A stretch of DNA of 64,000 bases from Acrocarpospora macrocephala (GTDB lineage Bacteria > Actinomycetota > Actinomycetes > Streptosporangiales > Streptosporangiaceae): positions 124,001 through 188,000 of the forward strand of contig NZ_BLAE01000006.1 of NCBI RefSeq assembly GCF_009687865.1, given 5' to 3'. The notes under the pieces are model-generated. The model worked only from the letters and a program-made list of their open reading frames with translations, did not search any database and was not told where the DNA came from. Of the stretch, positions 5,587-54,916 are shown piece after piece (the first letter of the stretch is position 1; each line of letters starts with the position of its first letter). The position numbers were made by a program, and so were the translations under genes.

Positions 5587-7140
5587 CTATTCCTCGTCCG
5601 AGGCTCCCGGGTATCCGCCGTCCTCGGTGGTGGCGGGCTCGTCTGGCTGGTCGGCCTCGGGTGGCCGGATGGTGTACGGGTCGTCGACCAGTGACCCGCC
5701 CGCGTCCAGCTCGGCCTGGATCTTCTCGACCTCGGCCATGACGTCGGCGTCCTCCCAGTCGGGGTGGAGCATCCGCACCATGACCTCGGTGCTCGCTGCT
5801 CCGGCTTGCCGATAGAGGGCAAGGGTTTCGGCGAGGGCTTTCGGGTCGGTGGCGACACCGTCAGGCCATTCGATCTTCGGCCGTTCGACCTCCACCGTCG
5901 TGCCGAAGACCACCCGGTCGATCGCCAGCAGCGCCCGCAGAATGTTGGAAGTCCGAGGGCGCCGGTAGCCGATCTTCTTGCCGCGCGTCGTGAACGACCG
6001 TTCCTGGCGGGCGATGACCTCGGTCGCCGTCACCGCCGCGACATCACCCTTCCCGCCGAAAGACTGGATGCTGTAGCCAGCGCCGCGGACGATGACTTCG
6101 GTCCAAGCGGCTGTGGTGTCCATGTGCTCCTGGACACGGATCTTGAACTGCTGGGCGCTGATCTCCAGTCCTTCGCCCTTGGTCATCGCGCCGACGGATT
6201 CGTACAGCTCCTGGTCGGGGTCGAACAGGCCGCCCTTGCCGGGGCCCTGCGACTGGATGTAGCTGTGCGGGACGATGAGCCGGGCCTTCGCGAGGCGGAT
6301 GTCCCGGTCCCAGCTGCTGTAGACCTCGTCGAGGCGGTCGAGCATCGGCTCGACGCCTTCAATGTCGGCGCGGCCGAGGTAGGCGGCGGCGGGCTGGTTC
6401 CGCCAGATCTTGGCGGGCCGCATGTTGGGGAAGTATTCGGCGGTCAGGTACGGGATCCGGGTGGGGATGCGGGTTCCGTCTTCGACGTGCTGGGCGAGGT
6501 AGGCGGTGGCTTCGTGTTCGGTGAGCGGCACCATGTGGCCGAGGTCGTCGAAGGTGCCCTCGTAGAGCCCGTGCAGGATGGCGCCGATTTCGTGGCGTTC
6601 GAGGTGCCGGATGACGGTGTTGTCGTCTTCGGCGAGGACGCGCCAGAAGGTGACGGCGACCAGGGCGCCGTACCGGAATTCGGGGATGGCAGCGTCGGCG
6701 TGGACGGGGGCCAACCACGGGCCGTCGGGGCGGACGTCTTTGTCCCAGCAGACGCGCAAGTAGTCGCCGCCGAGGGCTCCGCCGAGTTCGGCGGCCTCAT
6801 GGAAGGTGGACTGGAAGCCGTACTCGTCGGCGAGGGTTTCGAGGCGGGCGTTGGTGGCCTTGTCGCTGGCGGTGATCTTGACGGGTTCGGCGAAGAGCAT
6901 GTTGGCGCCGGTGACGGCGATGTCGCTGGCGAGGGGGACGTGGAGTTTGGTGCGGGTTTCGTTGCCGCGCGGTCGGGTGCCCCAGAAGAAGCGTCCGAGT
7001 TTGCGGCCGACTGTGGCGCGCCATCCTCCGCGTTCGCTGGCGAAGAAGCCGGTGGTGTCGCCGTTTTGGGCTCCGCCGCCGTAGATGGCGGAGAGCTGGT
7101 CGGGGTCGCCCGAGTCAATACCACGCCGACCACTCGGCAA
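5587..7140 (-). CDS. Phage portal protein, SPP1 gp6-like, with displaced N-terminus
   Basis: Forms the dodecameric DNA gate at one head vertex. The main frame encodes up to 517 residues. It contains a wing/stem-like organisation with LVRVxWD-type and RADIEGVEPMLDRLDE segments (about 265-280), a QGPGKGGLFDPDQE loop and a long C-terminal acidic tail, as in actinophage SPP1 gp6-type portals. It sits between minor head and terminase genes as expected. No ATG or ribosome site precedes this frame; a TTG at 7140 is the most upstream possible start and a stop lies 9 bases above it. The natural N-terminus appears to be in another frame (7115-7198), so the gene is probably frameshifted or depends on a frameshift. 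Confidence 0.85.
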   Translation of the reverse strand: MPSGRRGIDSGDPDQLSAIYGGGAQNGDTTGFFASERGGWRATVGRKLGRFFWGTRPRGNETRTKLHVPLASDIAVTGANMLFAEPVKITASDKATNARLETLADEYGFQSTFHEAAELGGALGGDYLRVCWDKDVRPDGPWLAPVHADAAIPEFRYGALVAVTFWRVLAEDDNTVIRHLERHEIGAILHGLYEGTFDDLGHMVPLTEHEATAYLAQHVEDGTRIPTRIPYLTAEYFPNMRPAKIWRNQPAAAYLGRADIEGVEPMLDRLDEVYSSWDRDIRLAKARLIVPHSYIQSQGPGKGGLFDPDQELYESVGAMTKGEGLEISAQQFKIRVQEHMDTTAAWTEVIVRGAGYSIQSFGGKGDVAAVTATEVIARQERSFTTRGKKIGYRRPRTSNILRALLAIDRVVFGTTVEVERPKIEWPDGVATDPKALAETLALYRQAGAASTEVMVRMLHPDWEDADVMAEVEKIQAELDAGGSLVDDPYTIRPPEADQPDEPATTEDGGYPGASDEE

Positions 7141-47845: not shown

Positions 47846-48406
47846 ATGAAAAGGGACATAACCACCCAATCTCACCCGATGGGGCTGATGCTGATGAACC
47901 TGGGCATCGTCGTTACGGCTGCGTTTTTTCTTGTGGTGTTGTTCGTCGTGCAGGCTGTACGGCGGCGGCGGGTGGATATTGAGACGGAGCGGGTCCTGGC
48001 TGAGATGGTCGAGGGGACGCTGGGGGCCGATGGGCGAGGGCTCGGGGATGCGGTGATCTTGCTGGAGCGGTCTCGGCAGGCGGGGCTGGCGGCGCGGCTG
48101 CATGTGTCGGGGGCGCAGAGGCCGTTGCCGCGGAGTGTGGATCTGGCGGGGTATCGCATTGTTCAGGAGGCTTTGACGAATGCCCTCGAGCATGGGACGG
48201 ATACGGCCACGGTGATCATCGGGTATCAGCCGAGTGCGATCACGCTTACGGTTGACAGTCCGGTTGGCGGGAGGCCCACCCGGCATTCTGGGGTGAAGCG
48301 GATGCGGGAACGGGCTACGCCGGTGGGCGGGACGGTGCAGGTGGGACCGTATGCGGGGGGCTGGCGCGTGTACGCGTATCTGCCAACCGAGCTTACCCCG
48401 TCGTGA
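47846..48406 (+). pseudogene. Truncated histidine kinase lacking the H-box
   Basis: About 186 residues from ATG 47846. One membrane segment (LMNLGIVVTAAFFLVVLFVV) is followed by a short linker and an ATPase domain: SVDLAGYRIVQEALTNALEH (N-box) and a degenerate G region VKRMRERATPVGGTVQVGPY. The dimerisation/His domain that should stand before this is missing. The same ATPase segment occurs intact in the kinase at 49046. It may be a remnant of an internal deletion or a dominant-negative partner. Confidence 0.6.
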
Positions 48407-48944
48407 CCTGGTCCTTCTTTGGCCAGAGGGTGTAGCTGATCGGCCAGATCGCGGCGATGAGGGGGACTTTCAGCGCGCCGAGCATGAAGGCGGACAGGGC
48501 TTCTGTCCGTGCATCATCTCCAACCATCACGATCGCGGCGAAGAGGAGTCCGCAGGCGATGCCGTACGCGAGGACGATTCTCAGCCAGAAGCCCCATTCG
48601 TAGCGGATGCGCGCGGAGCCGCCCGACGGTGGCTTCCAGGGCGGCGGGCCGCCGGCGAAACGGTGGGCGACATGTGCGTCGACCCACTGGATTGTCCGGT
48701 GGCCGAACACCACGGAATACGCGAGGTACGTCGCCGCGAGCCCATGCTGCCAGGTCGCCACGGCTCCGGAACGCATGTCGATCACGCCTGCCACCAGCAG
48801 CACCACATCGATCAGCGGAACGCATAGCAGCACGATTGCGCTCACGCGGGACAACCGCAGGCCGTATCGGGCGATCAGGCCGAGGCCGAGGAACACCCAG
48901 AAGCCGATCTCGCACGCGATGATCAGTGCCAGCATGCCGGACAC
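48393..48944 (-). CDS. Integral membrane protein (183 aa)
   Basis: 183 residues with four to five membrane segments (LALIIACEIGFWVFLGLGLI, VSAIVLLCVPLIDVVLLVAG, GIACGLLFAAIVMVG among them). The region around WQHGLAATYLAYSVVFGHRT and IQWVDAHV is conserved in actinobacterial proteins of this size that are often found beside two-component or transporter genes. Function unknown. Its 3-prime end overlaps the kinase remnant by 14 bases. Confidence 0.65.
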   Translation of the reverse strand: MSGMLALIIACEIGFWVFLGLGLIARYGLRLSRVSAIVLLCVPLIDVVLLVAGVIDMRSGAVATWQHGLAATYLAYSVVFGHRTIQWVDAHVAHRFAGGPPPWKPPSGGSARIRYEWGFWLRIVLAYGIACGLLFAAIVMVGDDARTEALSAFMLGALKVPLIAAIWPISYTLWPKKDQVTTG

Positions 48945-49045
48945 CTCCTTGATTCCATCGTGGGTGCCCGGCCTCCTGTAGTCCTCGTCAACGTGAACGA
49001 ACCGGGATACATCCTTCGATGTACGCCTGATGATGAGATAGAGGC

Positions 49046-50179
49046 ATGGCTCCCCTCCGGCAGGACACCTGGATGGCCGGCGTGTTCTTCATCGCCGGTC
49101 TTGTCCTGCTCGCCGCGGGTGTGTTCATCCCGAGAGCGACGCCGCCGAGCCTGCTCATCGGACCGCTCGCGATCAGCTGCGCCGGCATCGCGCTACGCCG
49201 CCGGGCGCCGATCCTCACCCTCGTGCTGGGATTTGTCTCCCTATTGGGCGACATCCTCCTCGGCCCTTCCCTGGGCACAGTCCTGATATTTACCGACAAC
49301 ATCTATGCCGCCGCCCTGTACGGCCCTGCGCCGCTGTCCCGCGCGCTTCTCCGGATCACTCCGGTGATCACGCTCGTGATCGGCGCGGCCGCCGGATATG
49401 CCGCCCAGGATTGGCGGGCGATCGCGATCGTGGGCGTTCAGGCCGGCCTGATCGGAATCGGCCCGGTGATCACAGCGGTCATCGTTCGCCAGCATCGTGA
49501 CCAGGCTGAGGCCGAGCGGACCCGGGCGGAGCAGATCGCCCGGTTGGCCGAACTCGACCAGCAATTGGCGATCACCGCCGAGCGCACGCGAATGGCCCGG
49601 GAGCTCCACGACCTAGTCGCCAATCATTTCAGCGCGATCGCCATCCAGTCGTCGGGGGTGCTCTCCCGCTCGGACCTGGAACCCCGGGCCGTACAGGCGA
49701 TCTTGGAGTCAATCAGGGAGAACAGCGTTCAGGGGATGGCGGAGATGCGCGCCATGATCGGCCTGCTTCGTGCGGAGACGCCAGATCAGGACGAACCGAC
49801 GCGGCGCAGGCTCGCCGACGCCGGGGACCTGATCGAACGATCGGGACTTCGGGCCACGCTCACGGTCAACGGTTCGGCTCGCGATCTGCCCGCCGCTGTC
49901 GATCTCGCCGCCTATCGGATCCTTCAGGAATCCCTGACGAATGCCCTCAAGCACGGTACGGCTCCCGCCGACGTCACCCTCGATTATGGTCCGAACATGG
50001 TCATCGTGACCGTCGACAATCCGGTCGGCGATCATCACCCGATCCTGCCGGGGGCAGGGGCGGGGCTGGTCGGGATGCGGGAACGCGCCACGCTCATCGG
50101 GGGCGCGTTCGAGGCGGGGCCGTACCTGAACGGCTGGCGGGTCCGCGCCGAGCTGCCCCTTCCGGAGGAGACGCCATGA
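49046..50179 (+). CDS. NarL-family sensor histidine kinase
   Basis: 377 residues. Five hydrophobic segments in the first 155 residues form the membrane sensor. A coiled linker leads to the H-box ERTRMARELHDLVANHF with His 188, a HisKA_3-type dimerisation domain, and an ATPase with N-box ESLTNALKHG (Asn about 298) and MRERATLIGG. Overlaps the response regulator by four bases, so they form one operon and a cognate pair. Stimulus unknown; a membrane signal is likely. Confidence 0.9.
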   Translation: MAPLRQDTWMAGVFFIAGLVLLAAGVFIPRATPPSLLIGPLAISCAGIALRRRAPILTLVLGFVSLLGDILLGPSLGTVLIFTDNIYAAALYGPAPLSRALLRITPVITLVIGAAAGYAAQDWRAIAIVGVQAGLIGIGPVITAVIVRQHRDQAEAERTRAEQIARLAELDQQLAITAERTRMARELHDLVANHFSAIAIQSSGVLSRSDLEPRAVQAILESIRENSVQGMAEMRAMIGLLRAETPDQDEPTRRRLADAGDLIERSGLRATLTVNGSARDLPAAVDLAAYRILQESLTNALKHGTAPADVTLDYGPNMVIVTVDNPVGDHHPILPGAGAGLVGMRERATLIGGAFEAGPYLNGWRVRAELPLPEETP

Positions 50180-50793
50180 TCAGGGTGCTGGTCGCGGACG
50201 ATCACGCAGCCGTGCGCGCGGGGCTGCTGCTGATTCTGGGTGGAGCTTCCGACATTGAGGTGATCGGTGAGGCGGCGGATGGGCGTACCGCGGTGGACAT
50301 GGCCCTCGAAATGCGGCCAGATGTCGTGCTCATGGACATACGCATGCCGCGCTTGGACGGAATCGCGGCCACGGCGGAACTGAACGGCGTCGCGGACGTG
50401 ATCATCCTGACCACGTTCGACCAGGATGAGTATGTTTTCGGTGCCCTCCGTGCGGGAGCTGCGGGGTTTCTGCTCAAGAACGCCGACGCGGACACGCTCG
50501 TCCAGGCCGTGCGGCTGGTCGCGCGTGGCGACGGTCTCATCTCGCCGTCGATCACCCGGCGGCTTATCAGCGCTTTCGCCCAGACGCGTACGGCAGAGCG
50601 ACCCGAACCCGAAGGACTCACCGCCCGCGAACGGGAAGTCCTCGAATGCCTCGGCCGAGGGCTGTCGAACGCGGAGATAGCCCGCGAGCTGGACATCGCC
50701 GAGCCGACAGCGAAGACGCACGTCAGCCGGGTGCTCACGAAACTCGGCTTGCAAAGCCGGGCGCAGGCAGCGGCGTACTACGCGGGAATGTAG
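50176..50793 (+). CDS. NarL/LuxR-family response regulator
   Basis: 205 residues. Receiver domain with acidic pocket (VLVADDH), phospho-acceptor Asp 54 in LMDIRMP, Thr in ILTTFD and Lys in FLLKNAD. C-terminal LuxR helix-turn-helix (LTAREREVLECLGRGLSNAE, IARELDIAEPTAKTHVSRVL). Pairs with the kinase upstream. A terminator hairpin lies about 40 bases downstream. Confidence 0.92.
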   Translation: MIRVLVADDHAAVRAGLLLILGGASDIEVIGEAADGRTAVDMALEMRPDVVLMDIRMPRLDGIAATAELNGVADVIILTTFDQDEYVFGALRAGAAGFLLKNADADTLVQAVRLVARGDGLISPSITRRLISAFAQTRTAERPEPEGLTAREREVLECLGRGLSNAEIARELDIAEPTAKTHVSRVLTKLGLQSRAQAAAYYAGM

Positions 50794-50835
50794 TGTCCCG
50801 GCAACACGACGCCTTCGACCTCGTAGAGCGACGGC

Positions 50836-50867
50836 GACCCCCGGGACCTGCCCTGGGCCCGGGGGTC
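50836..50867 (+). terminator. Terminator of the two-component operon
   Basis: GACCCCCGGG (50836-50845) and CCCGGGGGTC (50858-50867) make a perfect 10-bp stem 43 bases after the response-regulator stop. The downstream T content is modest (TGAAGTTTCC). Confidence 0.65.
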
Positions 50868-50923
50868 TGAAGTTTCCGTCATATAGGACGTCAGCTCGTT
50901 TAAGAATGCTGGTCAGTCTAAAG

Positions 50924-50996
50924 AGATCGTGCTCTTCCTATTAAGCTAGGGGCGCATGTGGAGCACCCCGCGGGAATCGAACCCGCACCCCGACCT
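50924..50996 (-). tRNA. Candidate circularly permuted tRNA, second of two
   Basis: Minus strand. First come the anticodon-stem 3-prime strand AGGTCG (50996-50991), variable GGGT, T arm GCGGG-TTCGATT-CCCGC (50986-50970) and acceptor 3-prime strand GGGGTGC (50969-50963) followed by TCCA, a possible discriminator plus encoded CCA. After three further bases come acceptor 5-prime GCGCCCC (50955-50949), TA, D arm GCTT-AATAGGAA-GAGC, A, and anticodon-stem 5-prime strand CGATCT (50929-50924). Acceptor pairing is 7 of 7 with one G-U, anticodon pairing 6 of 6 with one G-U. The anticodon cannot be assigned because the loop is the break point. Confidence 0.65.
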
Positions 50997-51009
50997 GCTC
51001 TGTCAACAT

Positions 51010-51945
51010 TCAATTGTTCTGGCGCCCGACGGATAATGCTGAATCTGGAGCGAGAGCCTGAGATTGAACGGCTGCCTCTACCATTGGGCTACTCCGGCGT
51101 GAGTTCCGGAGTCGGGGATCGAACCCGAACTTTTCACCGTGGTTCAGTTTCAGCTTCATTTTCAGCTTGCGCTCCTCGCGCACCCGCTCTCGCGAACGGG
51201 GGTCCATGACGTGCCAGCCCAGCAGGTAGCCGAACAGCGCCTCGCCGACCCGCTGGTCGACGATCTCGGTGCCGTTGGCCTCCTCGCGGGCATACTTGAC
51301 GGCTTCCTGAAGTTTGACGACGCGGGCCAGTAACTCGTTCACCCGGCGCTGCGGAACCGCGCCGGAGAAGCCGACCTTGGTCCAGTAGCCGACGATGACG
51401 TCCTCGTTGTAGACCTGCACCTGCGCCGGGTGTTTCTCCGTCGCGGCGACCAGGACGTGGTTGCGCGGCACCTTCTTGGTCCGCGTCGTCTTCACCGGCT
51501 CGGTTCGCCAAGAATCGGTGTTCTCGTCGCGCGCCCAGCTCTCGGACGGATCCAGCGTCGGCAGCCGTGAAATGAAATTGTGCAGGTCGACGAGCTGCTT
51601 CTCCAGAAACAGCAGGTACGTCACCGGCACGTCGGGCACCAGCACGACCCCGTCGATCTTCACGTCGGCCTTCGCCGAGCAGTTCGCGACATCCTTGGTC
51701 GCGGTCACGTCGAAGAGCCGGGTCAGCGTCACCGTCACATCCGTGAGCACCTGCTCGGCCTGCACCTGCACCCGCGTCGACTCCGGCGGAAGCTGCTCGC
51801 CCTCATCGTCGATCGGCTGGTACGTCCGGGAGATGCCGGACAGCAGCGGAGGCTTGTTGATCAGGTTGTGCGCGTCGGCCACCTTACGCTGGACGTCGGA
51901 TTTGACGCCCTTCTCCACGGCGAGGATCTGGTTGAGCTTGGTCAC
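51010..51945 (-). CDS. Conserved actinobacterial protein of unknown function, upstream of permuted tRNAs
   Basis: 311 residues. The first 270 are well structured: MTKLNQILAVEKGVKSDVQR, LLSGISRTYQPIDDEGEQLP, LTRLFDVTATKDVANCSAKA, VPVTYLLFLEKQLVDLHNFI, VKTTRTKKVPRNHVLVAATE and GYWTKVGFSGAVPQRRVNEL. I recall proteins of this kind as hypothetical proteins in actinobacteria but no function. The last 40-50 residues coincide with the first permuted tRNA and look like incidental coding of RNA sequence. The natural C-terminus is probably near KLKMKLKLNHGE (about 51140). Whether it takes part in tRNA maturation is only a hypothesis from position. Confidence 0.75.
   Translation of the reverse strand: MTKLNQILAVEKGVKSDVQRKVADAHNLINKPPLLSGISRTYQPIDDEGEQLPPESTRVQVQAEQVLTDVTVTLTRLFDVTATKDVANCSAKADVKIDGVVLVPDVPVTYLLFLEKQLVDLHNFISRLPTLDPSESWARDENTDSWRTEPVKTTRTKKVPRNHVLVAATEKHPAQVQVYNEDVIVGYWTKVGFSGAVPQRRVNELLARVVKLQEAVKYAREEANGTEIVDQRVGEALFGYLLGWHVMDPRSRERVREERKLKMKLKLNHGEKFGFDPRLRNSRRSSPMVEAAVQSQALAPDSALSVGRQNN
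51068..51140 (-). tRNA. Candidate circularly permuted tRNA, first of two
   Basis: Minus strand. The upstream part has ACGGT (51140-51136), a 7-base variable region, T arm TCGGG-TTCGATC-CCCGA (51128-51112) and acceptor 3-prime strand CTCCGGA (51111-51105). After a 6-base linker come GCCGGAG (51098-51092), TA, a D arm with GCCC-AATGGTAGA-GGC, A and GCCGT (51072-51068). Six of seven acceptor pairs and all five anticodon-stem pairs form (one G-U). No CCA is encoded. It lies inside the reading frame of the gene at 51010. Confidence 0.65.
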
Positions 51946-52110
51946 GGCACGACCGTAGCGGTAAGAGACGACATTTCACACCTCAATATCTGTAGGGGGA
52001 CACCCGAGCCCCTCGGACTCCGCGCTGGGCTGCAGAGTAATTGCTATCAGCCGCGACCGACAGAACCACTTGGCCTCGCGTTCCAGGCTAAAGTGGCCCT
52101 CTCGGGCAAG

Positions 52111-52189
52111 TGCAGGAGGATGGATTCGAACCACCACAGCAATGCGTCCGGGTTACAACCGAATGAGCTCACCAGTGCTCAGCTCCTGC
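52111..52189 (-). tRNA. tRNA with apparent anticodon GTA
   Basis: Acceptor GCAGGAG and CTCCTGC pair fully; D arm GAGC-ACTGGTGA-GCTC; anticodon arm TTCGG-TTGTAAC-CCGGA (one G-U) gives GTA (Tyr); an 11-base variable region; T arm GGTGG-TTCGAAT-CCATC. Bases 8-9 are CT rather than the usual T-purine, and the variable region is shorter than in standard bacterial tRNA-Tyr. No CCA is encoded. Probably an accessory tRNA of a mobile cluster. Confidence 0.6.
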
Positions 52190-52201
52190 TGGAATACCAC
52201 G

Positions 52202-52276
52202 TCCAGGCGGCAGATTCGAACCTGCGATACTCCTGCTCCCAAAGCAGGCGGGCTGACCAAACTGCCCCACACCCGG
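52202..52276 (-). tRNA. tRNA-Pro(TGG) with shortened T arm
   Basis: Acceptor CCGGGTG and CGCCTGG pair with two wobbles; D arm GGGC..GCCC; anticodon arm CCTGC-TTTGGGA-GCAGG gives TGG (Pro). The T arm reads GCAG-GTTCGAAT-CTGC, four pairs and an eight-base loop, as if one C had been lost from a normal GCAGG...CCTGC stem. No CCA is encoded. It may be functional but atypical. Confidence 0.7.
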
Positions 52277-52627
52277 TTTACCGTTCCGGCATAAGAACGG
52301 TAACAAGGATGCTTTCCAGCATTCATCTGATTTTCGGGAATTACGCTGCCGGACGGCGGGCTCAGGATTCTGTCGGTGGCGGGTGTTGAGCGTCACTGGT
52401 CATGAGCACGGTGCGTCGCTCCCGGTGAGCATCATCACTGCAATATGTCCTGACCCATAATCGCCAGTCATGCTCATGCCGACGCTATGATGCTCGTCGT
52501 GGCGGTAGCCAGCGCCCAATTGCACGGCGTGTGCTGTCGTCGACGCTGCGCTCTTCGCGGCAGATTAGTGCGCGTTATATGTGGGGTGCAACAGTTCCCG
52601 ACTTGTTGGGGTAGAGCTGATGGATTG
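52277..52627. other. Gene-free region upstream of the tRNA pair
   Basis: No credible coding frame. The segment 52277-52320 is the leader of the leftward tRNAs. The rest shows no repeat, hairpin or motif that I can support. Confidence 0.4.
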
Positions 52628-53302
52628 TCATGAAGTAGGTTGCTCAGTGATCCACGGTAGGACGTTACGACTACCGATTGCCATGTAAGCGGCAATATTC
52701 TCTCGAACCGCCACATGTTCCGAGACGACGAATGCGAAGACAGGGCAATCGGCAAGCGAGAACCTTTCCCGCAATTCCTGAAGCGAGCGTCCACTGCTGA
52801 CATTCCCTTGAATGATCCAGCAGCGGTTGCCGTCTAGTTGATAGCTTTCCGGCCAAAGAGCGCCGATCCGGGGGTTTTTTCCACGAGTCTCGTACCGCAT
52901 GTCAAAGACAAGGACGGACGGTGGCTCGTATCCCAGGTCTCGAATCGCCTTCGCCACCATCCCAACCGCGATCGCCCCTCCGGGGCCAATCCCGACTAGG
53001 ACCTTCTCCGCAGTCAGCTCACGAAGGAGGCGGGTATGAACGTAGTCCCGCACGGCCCGAAACAGAATAAACCATCTAAGAGGGCCCGCCACAGCGGAAA
53101 CTAGTACGACTCCTAGCCCGGAAAACAAGATAAGGAGGACGGCCAGGGGCACAGAACCCTTGACCCCCGCGGCCTCAGCAACAGTCCACACCAATCCGAC
53201 TAGCGATCCGGTCATTACCACCGCGCCCGCTGCTGTTACAGACCTACGTCGGTCGAAGATCCAAATGATTCTTTGAAGCCAGAAGACGCCAGGCGAAGGC
53301 AT
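52628..53302 (-). CDS. Membrane-anchored phosphoribosyltransferase-like protein
   Basis: 224 residues. Two N-terminal membrane segments (SVTAAGAVVMTGSLVGLVWT, then LAVLLILFSGLGVVLVSAVA) precede a basic linker and a cytoplasmic domain with the PRTase order: KVLVGIGPGGAIAVGMVAKA (about 112-131), VLVFDMR (about 146) and CWIIQGNVSSGRSLQELRER (about 174-193). The last block replaces the normal DD of the PRPP loop with QG but keeps the SSGRS phosphate loop. Lower GC than its neighbours suggests acquisition. Membrane PRTases of this kind are not part of known nucleotide salvage; a signalling or defence role is speculative. Confidence 0.65.
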   Translation of the reverse strand: MPSPGVFWLQRIIWIFDRRRSVTAAGAVVMTGSLVGLVWTVAEAAGVKGSVPLAVLLILFSGLGVVLVSAVAGPLRWFILFRAVRDYVHTRLLRELTAEKVLVGIGPGGAIAVGMVAKAIRDLGYEPPSVLVFDMRYETRGKNPRIGALWPESYQLDGNRCWIIQGNVSSGRSLQELRERFSLADCPVFAFVVSEHVAVRENIAAYMAIGSRNVLPWITEQPTS

Positions 53303-53893
53303 AGCGAACTTTGTCCATACCCAGTCCTGAGGAGCAAGTAGAACGACGCTACTGTGGCCGTAGCGTAATCACAAGTTCAACTAGACTGGAACGAGGGTGA
53401 ACTTCACCAATCCTCGACTGGTGTCACTCATCTCGGCAGAAGAGGACGACGTCACGGTCCCGAGCCTGGGCGCGTCCGGGCCCAGGCAAGCACGAGCCAT
53501 GATGTCAACTCTTCGTCGTGCTCACGAGAGTGTCGCTGACCTTCGCAGGATTTCGGTCCCCAGCATGCTCATCTTCAATGACTTCTCGTGGTCATACCGA
53601 ATGACGGGTAACAGCGGGTGTCAGACTCATCGCCATGCGTGATGACGTGGTTGAGGGAACTCTTGGAAGCTGGCCCGGAGCTCCCGTAGGTGCCCAGGCT
53701 CTCGACAACGCACTGCTCGGCCGCCCTTGGATGCCCGCTCTCACAGCTGACGTGAATAGTCGCCTGTGGGGGGATGCTGCTCCAGCCGCCACACTGTCTT
53801 GTGCGCGGCTCAAGGACGCGCTGATCGAACGTTGGCCTAATGAGAGAGGTGCCCTGACGCGCGGTCCGCCCTGCCCGCCCTATCGTCGGACTC
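53303..53893. other. Region without a confident gene
   Basis: Short frames on both strands (for example 53397-53642 and 53635-53934 on plus) have weak codon bias and no recognised motif. Base composition is lower in GC around 53303-53600. It may hold the promoter of the dehydrogenase at 53894 and a decayed gene. Confidence 0.4.
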
Positions 53894-54916
53894 ATGGTGC
53901 GGATTCCGGACGAGATGAACGCTTGGGTCGTTGATCGGCCAGGGCCGATGTCGACTGAGCCGTTGAAGCGGGTGCGAATTCCGGTGCCCGAACCCCTTCC
54001 GGGCCAGGTGCTGATCAAGGTTGAGGTCTGCGCGGTGTGCCGTACCGACCTGCACCTCGCCGAAGGCGACCTTGAACCCCATCGGCCGCGCACGGTTCCG
54101 GGCCACGAGGCGGTCGGGCACATCGTGGCAGGGGCGACGAATGCGGACCTGACGGTCGGGTCTCGGGTCGGGGTGGCTTGGCTGCGGTCGACCTGTGGCA
54201 CATGCCGATATTGCCTGCGCGGGGCGGAGAACCTCTGCCCGTATTCCACGTATACCGGCTGGGATGCGGACGGCGGCTACGCCGAATACCTTCTCGCCCC
54301 CGAGGCCTATGTCTATCCGCTGCCGGAGGATCATCCTGCGGAGAAGCTGGCTCCGCTGCTGTGCGCCGGAATCATCGGATATCGTGCACTGCTCCAGGCC
54401 GACCTCCCGCCCGGTGGCCGGCTTGGCATCTACGGCTTCGGCGCGTCAGCGCATCTCACCGCTCAAGTGGCCATCGCCCAAGGCGCTGCTGTACATGTGC
54501 TGACAAGGTCGGAGAAAGCGCGCGAGCTTGCCCTCGACTTGGGGGCGGCGTCGGCACGGGGCGCCTATGACGCACCGCCCGAACCACTCGATTCGGCCAT
54601 CCTCTTCGCCCCCGTGGGTGATCTCGTTCCCGTGGCGCTGGAGGCGCTCGACCGCGGCGGCACGCTCGCCGTCGCGGGCATCCACCTCACCGACATCCCC
54701 AGCCTCACCTACGAACGACACCTCTTCCAGGAGCGCGTCCTGCGCAGCGTCACCGCCAACACCCGCGAGGACGGCCACGCGTTCCTGGCATTCGCCGCAC
54801 ACAACCCCCTCCAGGTCACCACCGTCCCGTACGACTTCGCCAACGCCGCGGACGCGCTCACCGATCTGGCCGCCGACCGCATGAACGGCGCAGCGGTCCT
54901 CCACATCGGCAACTGA
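53894..54916 (+). CDS. Zinc-dependent alcohol dehydrogenase
   Basis: 340 residues, MDR superfamily. [18 protein letters not shown] gives catalytic-zinc Cys; [11 protein letters not shown] gives the GHE motif; [16 protein letters not shown] carries the four structural-zinc cysteines; [20 protein letters not shown] is the Rossmann glycine motif (GxGxxG variant). Similar to AdhP-type enzymes that act on primary alcohols with NAD or NADP. Transcribed alone. Start chosen at ATG 53894; no strong ribosome site is visible. Confidence 0.9.

Follow-up and report, generated by a model that had tools for sequence, protein, structure and literature searches.

Directly behind a DUF7873 gene in Acrocarpospora macrocephala we find a predicted RNA that carries two tRNA mimics in circularly permuted order. 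We consider it probable (about 0.8) that the two form one cassette, DUF7873 plus a non-coding RNA of ~330-380 nt whose two Y-RNA-like arms are each capped by a permuted tRNA-mimic head, and that this cassette encodes a putative ribonucleoprotein (RNP). The RNA in the window (the whole stretch of 64,000 nucleotides that was analysed) is most likely a putative Ro60-independent component of such a tRNA-mimic RNP. The anatomy of the heads, a covariation that is strongest in arm 2, a tRNA core signature, the linkage to DUF7873 and the non-adjacency to Ro60 in 12 genomes all come directly out of the computations.

The RNA region is predicted to fold into a pair of 5′ hairpins, two long arms, each capped by one tRNA-like unit, and a GC-rich hairpin at its end (Table 1). 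A terminator scan found no site on the minus strand within 50600-52500. The preliminary description of this DNA had taken the bases before unit 1 to be protein-coding, which is correct in this strain, where the DUF7873 frame runs on because the stop codon TAG of a same-genus relative reads TGG.

Table 1. Features of the DUF7873-RNA locus, in window positions.
Feature	Position	Strand	Basis or remark
DUF7873 protein (PF25283), conserved part of 243 aa	51945-51217	minus	Pfam E 4.4e-114
Open reading frame of DUF7873, extending through head 1	to 51010	minus	codon 51216-51214 is TGG; TAG in relative L010
RNA-like region, directly 3′ of the DUF7873 gene	~51204-50836	minus	
Two 5′ hairpins of the RNA, one GC-rich, one GCGC-GAGGA-GCGC	51204-51169	minus	predicted fold; partial sequence conservation in 23 relatives
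Arm 1: basal stem GCTGAA/TTCAGC (predicted) and stem TGAA/TTCA bearing head 1	51168-51038	minus	predicted fold; flank-pairing test
Conserved core CTCTCGCTCCAGATTCAGC	within 51168-51038 (arm 1)	minus	
tRNA-like head 1 (unit 1)	51140-51068	minus	circular ARAGORN call; T stem and acceptor rank with the top covarying pairs
Head 1, order of parts: anticodon-stem 3′ strand, T arm, acceptor 3′ strand, linker, acceptor 5′ strand, D arm, anticodon-stem 5′ strand		minus	
Unit 1, anticodon-stem 3′ strand	from 51140	minus	
Unit 1, T arm	51128-51112	minus	
Unit 1, acceptor 3′ strand	from 51111	minus	
Unit 1, acceptor 5′ strand	from 51097	minus	six pairs; followed by T8-A9
Unit 1, D arm	51089-51074	minus	
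Unit 1, anticodon-stem 5′ strand	from 51073	minus	
Arm 2: outer stem CCGTC/GACGG, inner 9-bp stem (from GAATG/CATTC), anticodon-like stem, head 2	51032-50876	minus	pair changes in 31 sequences
tRNA-like head 2 (unit 2)	50996-50924	minus	Rfam YrlA match, full-length model match, circular ARAGORN
Unit 2, T arm	50986-50970	minus	
Unit 2, acceptor hairpin	50969-50949	minus	seven pairs
Unit 2, D arm	50946-50931	minus	
Unit 2, anticodon-stem 5′ strand	from 50929	minus	
GC-rich terminal hairpin, possible terminator without T run	50867-50836	minus	predicted fold

The permuted order of both units, including the numbers of acceptor pairs and T8-A9 in unit 1, is as the preliminary description had read it. 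When the circular permutation it had suggested was carried out with ARAGORN, both window units were called tRNA, while no ordinary tRNA was found at either of them in linear order. Rotation restores the cloverleaf, as in a circularly permuted tRNA gene, and it does so well beyond the window. We collected 160 homologous loci (L030-L189), taking the best 80 from 574 relatives in genomes and the best 80 from 364 viral ones, and 252 of the 254 units in these best 80+80 loci gave an ARAGORN tRNA once circularised (in at least one of 35 extents), against 0/254 in linear order and 0/254 for shuffled circles.

A permuted-cloverleaf descriptor run over the 64-kb window placed unit 2 at the top with a score of 18 and gave unit 1 a score of 16. 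Another site, at 6593 on the plus strand, scored 17 and was rejected, as circular ARAGORN recognised it in 0/35 extents; since it outscores unit 1, unit 1 is not outstanding by that score alone and the homologues decide. With the cut set at 16.4 or above, the descriptor found a unit within 700 nt downstream of DUF7873 in 149/160 of the best 80+80 loci, compared with 4/160 upstream, 4/160 further downstream, 0/160 antisense, 0/160 in the gene and 0/160 in each of five dinucleotide shuffles. At a cut of 15.3 these controls rose to 11, 7, 1 and 1 of 160, with one match across the five shuffles. Two units were present in 104 of the 149 positives and one in 45: all 80 genome loci (best 80 of 574) were positive, 57 with two units and 23 with one, as were 69 of the 80 viral loci (best 80 of 364), with two units in 47, one in 22 and none in 11. 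T8 and the D-loop GG are rewarded by the descriptor and are thus not independent evidence; positions 14, 15 and 48 are independent of it. The first T arm lies 78-195 nt past the DUF7873 stop in the two-unit genome loci (from the best 80 of 574). The tRNA-like order of the window units is real and far beyond chance.

The association with DUF7873 was followed with a model (R1) of 31 sequences that includes the window and its relatives, so that positives of the same genera match partly by construction; the negatives are not in the model. The window RNA, itself part of the model, scores 144.5 bits over the full length. DUF7873 occurs in 12 of 60 relatives' genomes (A. macrocephala's own included), and matches over model positions 1-170 of at least 93 bits occur in exactly these 12/12 genomes; in the other 48 the highest score was 50.6 bits, for a partial match, and four weak alignments over 1-170 reached 19-22 bits. 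Thus the same order beside the same upstream gene, which had been proposed as something to look for in other actinobacteria, is indeed found there. Across the phylum (396 genomes, own included), DUF7873 is present in 7, full-length matches of at least 75.9 bits fall in the same 7, and the remaining 389 have no 1-170 match at E 1e-9. Weaker partial matches elsewhere were, where inspected, either Ro-linked YrlA or tandem ordinary tRNAs. The RNA and DUF7873 are therefore linked in both directions.

Y RNAs are partners of the Ro60 ring, which binds the Y RNA stem, and one could read the window RNA as a canonical pair of Ro60 Y RNAs, with the Ro60 gene at another site of the genome and DUF7873 as an accessory. 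The A. macrocephala genome does carry a TROVE (Ro60) gene, and TROVE, found in 19/60 relatives, is present in 9/12 DUF7873 genomes vs 10/48 others. We nevertheless regard this reading as unlikely. DUF7873 and TROVE are adjacent in 0/12 of the DUF7873 genomes checked; in the nine genomes that have both, they sit on different contigs or 346 kb apart (G031), and three genomes (G002, G004, G013) hold DUF7873 and the RNA with no TROVE match. The Ro-linked Y RNAs of A. macrocephala itself share a stem motif, GGTGCG...CTTC with GATCTCGG, which was found at 0/160 DUF7873 loci (best 80/574 genome and best 80/364 viral), for a motif that was derived by eye in this analysis and matches just 4/9 TROVE loci. 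Since a separate Ro-linked Y RNA is present on one contig of this genome (C63) and a Y RNA array on another (C144), two tRNA-mimic systems coexist in it. On the former (L017 1350-1620) the Ro-linked Y RNAs lie upstream of the TROVE gene and have the stem motif in common with the array; the latter, a 3.9-kb contig (L016 1400-2050), has two Rfam YrlA matches, more by eye, and an adjoining 450-aa frame. Among 14 control genomes, Deinobacterium chartae is the sole one with DUF7873 and also the sole one with TROVE.

YrlA, for which the founding paper is reportedly that of Chen and others in 2014, is also the family that Rfam returns at the window. The match (RF02553) lies on unit 2 over 50903-51009 with 28.4 bits and E 0.0052, below the gathering score of 69 bits; over 48000-54000, at E up to 5, there was nothing for unit 1 and no tmRNA match. 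At least one sub-threshold YrlA match, of 27-41 bits, was present in 12/12 DUF7873 loci scanned (that of the window and those of 11 relatives). The matches at TROVE loci and in the C144 array were likewise below 69, at 35-48 bits, and 3/7 TROVE loci scanned gave none.

As for the protein, the structure model of DUF7873 is confident (pLDDT 91.9, pTM 0.65) and shows long helices as well as a long beta hairpin (151-190), which in the window protein contains TTRTKKVPR; among 17 members T153 never varies and K158 hardly does. The model had no match in the PDB at E 0.001 (best 0.055) and one among viral structures with a TM of about 0.2, so that no known fold stands out for the modelled protein as a convincing match. 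PHROGs (5 proteins), NCBIfam (3) and PADLOC (3) gave no match and no named domain, and a YicC-like_C identity was discarded because that weak match is restricted to 1/17 members. The protein has a pI of 5.9 and is not basic, which gives RNA binding no support. The plasmid collection holds DUF7873 in 4 records. At 80 genome loci (best 80 of 574) no third conserved gene stands out: beyond DUF7873-like clusters the next cluster reaches 28/80. Three single-linkage clusters, each spanning 79-80 loci, lie by their medians 247-1038 nt ahead of the DUF7873 stop, and because of this position we take them to be the DUF7873 gene in several frames. The literature searched had nothing on DUF7873 by name, and no publication on the DUF7873-RNA pair was found by title or abstract start among the matches listed, in a search that covered few subscription papers.

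Covariation was examined in 82 sequences under 90% identity, drawn from 119 of the 149 unit-bearing loci (from the best 80/574 genome and 80/364 viral). The top 90 covarying column pairs include the T stems and acceptors of both units and, in unit 2, additionally the D stem, the anticodon-like stem, the 9-bp stem and the outer stem. Of these pairs 46 are at least 75% canonical; among the remaining 44 there are 30 that touch columns 23-27 or 214-222 and resemble a lineage effect. At 15-48, a tRNA tertiary pair unused by the descriptor, unit 2 has A-T in 73/82 and G-C in 9/82 sequences, and unit 1 has A-T in 60, G-C in 2 and other in 7 of 69. In arm 2, 96.9% of cells pair across 31 sequences, both-side changes occur in 27/31 pairs and 0/500 shuffles are as good; the structure was derived from the same alignment, in which slid versions drop to 41-47%. 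From 23 whole RNAs, RNAalifold predicted 68 pairs, with changes on both sides in 35. The stems and the 15-48 pair thus covary, and the units are neither rearranged wrecks of linear tRNAs nor structures whose pairing is lost in relatives, two outcomes that had been named as fatal to the original claim.

Unit 1 is less strongly marked outside its head. Single-sequence folding z-scores were unremarkable for it (-1.0 and -0.6) and reached -2.8 and -2.6 for unit 2, and the basal stem of arm 1 is missing from the top covarying pairs, RNAalifold having picked other pairs there. In 47 viral loci (from the best 80/364), the flanks of unit 1 pair better with their own than with swapped partners at P 3.5e-10, a value that includes the anticodon-like stem and is rough because the swaps are not independent; for all 104 two-unit loci the figures were 19.3 (own) vs 17.3 (swapped). 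There is strong evidence that in unit 2 the anticodon-like stem extends into a longer pairing without an anticodon loop. The same appears to hold, less so, for unit 1, on the basis of the predicted fold and the flank-pairing test.

This bears on the claim that the units are permuted tRNA genes, which is not supported: with the anticodon-like stem continuing into pairing and no anticodon loop, joining of the ends would not be expected to yield a decoding tRNA, and because the junction is a conserved helix we set that reading aside. In a broader form, as permuted tRNA genes or a tmRNA-like RNA from which RNase P and tRNase Z remove the acceptor linker to leave free, chargeable CCA ends, it seems to us quite unlikely. 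The linker does often begin with a base followed by CCA (35/104 unit 1, 28/104 unit 2 and 10/45 single units in the best 80+80 loci), and a two-piece tmRNA made from a permuted bacterial gene is described in PMC3985003. In Rhizobium and Vibrio phages (L204, L205, L207, L209, L026), where the linker starts in this way, it also seems, by eye, to contain its own small hairpin, like an excisable spacer. However, CCA is absent from the majority of units, many linkers are merely 4-8 nt long, the anticodon-like stem enters conserved helices (best seen in unit 2), and Rfam has no tmRNA match at the window locus. A variant that we hold to be very unlikely is that RNase P and tRNase Z would cut the acceptor linkers after DUF7873 has bound, so that a single long RNA lacking an anticodon would carry two CCA ends fit for charging; if true, it would be a new kind of aminoacylated RNP common to phages and actinobacteria. 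An origin by chance, or from neighbouring genes of an ordinary tRNA array (the 3′ half of one followed by the 5′ half of another), is practically negligible: tandem ordinary tRNAs elsewhere (L210-L214) do give partial model matches, but no linear tRNA lies over the units of the window or of the best 80+80 loci, the model matches are strong and full-length, the covarying outer stems refute it, and chance is ruled out by the descriptor controls, the shuffles, the linear and shuffled ARAGORN runs and the arm 2 shuffles. Such tandem genes, of which one locus (L213) has 18 in 1.5 kb, imitate a permuted unit and are a trap for permuted-tRNA searches.

DUF7873 and the modules are not confined to chromosomes. 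A tblastn search with DUF7873 returned 73 phage records, and 88 with a cyanophage query, from phages of Vibrio, Prevotella (Lak), Gordonia, Rhizobium, Klebsiella, Serratia, Arthrobacter, Pseudanabaena, Rhodococcus and Microcoleus. At least one module passing circular ARAGORN was present in 11/13 named-phage loci, among which two Rhizobium and two Vibrio phages are near-related; Lak phage L208 (Lak-B4) and Microcoleus L206 have DUF7873 without a module, the one weak match of the latter failing ARAGORN. The Arthrobacter, Gordonia Phendrix, Rhodococcus, cyanophage and Klebsiella loci have two modules and the Rhizobium and Vibrio loci one, while Gordonia Ronaldo has one by the descriptor and a second, partial model match. 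The full-length model scored 67-106 bits on L021-L024, gave partial matches on L025 (39.1) and L027 (28.6) and nothing of weight on L026. Phages of actinobacteria, too, bear the RNA. Outside actinobacterial hosts the full RNA model fails or is partial, yet tRNA-like modules still follow DUF7873.

Of the 11 viral loci without a descriptor match, nine were searched with R1 (L145 and L174 left out). Five had full-length matches of 80-131 bits (L112, L142, L159, L182, L185), L187 and L188 were weak at 36.8, and L144 and L173 had none over the model's length. As some DUF7873 loci (L144, L173, L208, L206) are without the RNA, the protein may act alone. In viral L185 (4935-5102, minus), L182 (2765-2932) and L112 (4485-4652) the RNA lies on the other strand, upstream or ~750 nt from DUF7873. 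By eye, head 1 is apparently a plain hairpin in seven single-unit Streptomyces loci (L055, L056, L067, L078, L101, L104, L107) that retain the core and arm 2, a natural loss of one tRNA mimic.

Cyanophage PA-SR01 (L025 5763-5942) has a sub-threshold permuted tmRNA match near the cassette (31.9 bits vs a threshold of 47), and Gordonia phage Phendrix (L022 1072-1600) a clear tmRNA match of 89 bits that is missing from the record's feature table. In Rhodococcus phage NiceHouse (L023 4374-5246) a Band-7-like membrane protein comes right after the RNA and a tRNA-Lys.

How the putative RNP might work can be sketched by analogy. The RNA and the DUF7873 mRNA would come from one transcript unit, being on the same strand with a T arm close past the stop, and DUF7873 may bind the stems and core much as Ro60 binds the Y RNA stem. 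The tRNA-like heads could then serve as docking sites for proteins that normally hold tRNA, for instance modification enzymes or, among exonucleases, PNPase, and would guide these proteins or compete for them. In phages, where the cassette is often near tRNA genes (an ordinary tRNA is within the fetched stretch at 44/80 viral and 17/80 genome loci, best 80/364 and best 80/574), the RNA might be a decoy or scaffold that protects or manages tRNA during infection, an idea that follows proposals made for YrlA in PMC7790460 and PMC8394870, namely competitive inhibition of an anticodon nuclease or PNPase tethering. That the heads are a scaffold for a nuclease or modification enzyme is a tentative suggestion, and that they are a pure decoy is less probable still.

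If our preferred reading of a DUF7873-bound RNP is right, a Y-RNA-like tRNA mimic is tied to a protein family other than Ro60, in actinobacterial chromosomes and phages, with modules also behind the DUF7873 gene in phages of proteobacteria and of a cyanobacterium. The permuted tRNA mimic would then be a module that can be reused with different kinds of protein, and DUF7873 would gain a concrete, testable role. A structured RNA would also be added to phage tRNA regions that the annotation leaves blank or, for one Klebsiella phage, fills with a tRNA-Stop call.

Among known systems, the permuted two-piece tmRNA, the product of a permuted gene in bacteria (PMC3985003), resembles the window RNA in having a permuted tRNA-like domain in bacteria and differs in that Rfam finds no tmRNA at the window locus. 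The circularly permuted tRNA genes of algae and an archaeon share the order of halves; however, according to PMC3978253, their junction lies in a bulge-helix-bulge and is spliced to a circular intermediate, whereas here it is a conserved helix without an anticodon. The closest relative is YrlA, in which, according to PMC8394870, Rsr is bound by a basal stem and a further domain resembles the D, T and acceptor arms of tRNA; Y RNA structure 6CU1 is given in PMC11472068 as a circular permutation of tRNA. YrlA is thus an established bacterial tRNA mimic of this kind, and the earlier impression that bacteria offer no precedent does not stand. Phage Y RNAs are already known as well, from a Listeria phage in which candidate Y RNAs occur together with a Ro-like protein (PMC12282133). 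Like YrlA, the window RNA presents T, D and acceptor arms in permuted order on a stem of the flanking strands, clearly so for unit 2 and, for unit 1, with a clear head and a less clear stem. Unlike YrlA, whose family threshold it scores below, and without the stem motif of the Ro-linked Y RNAs in its own genome, it stands behind DUF7873, away from Ro60 in the 12 genomes checked, with tandem arms that bear two heads and, in addition, 5′ hairpins and a conserved core.
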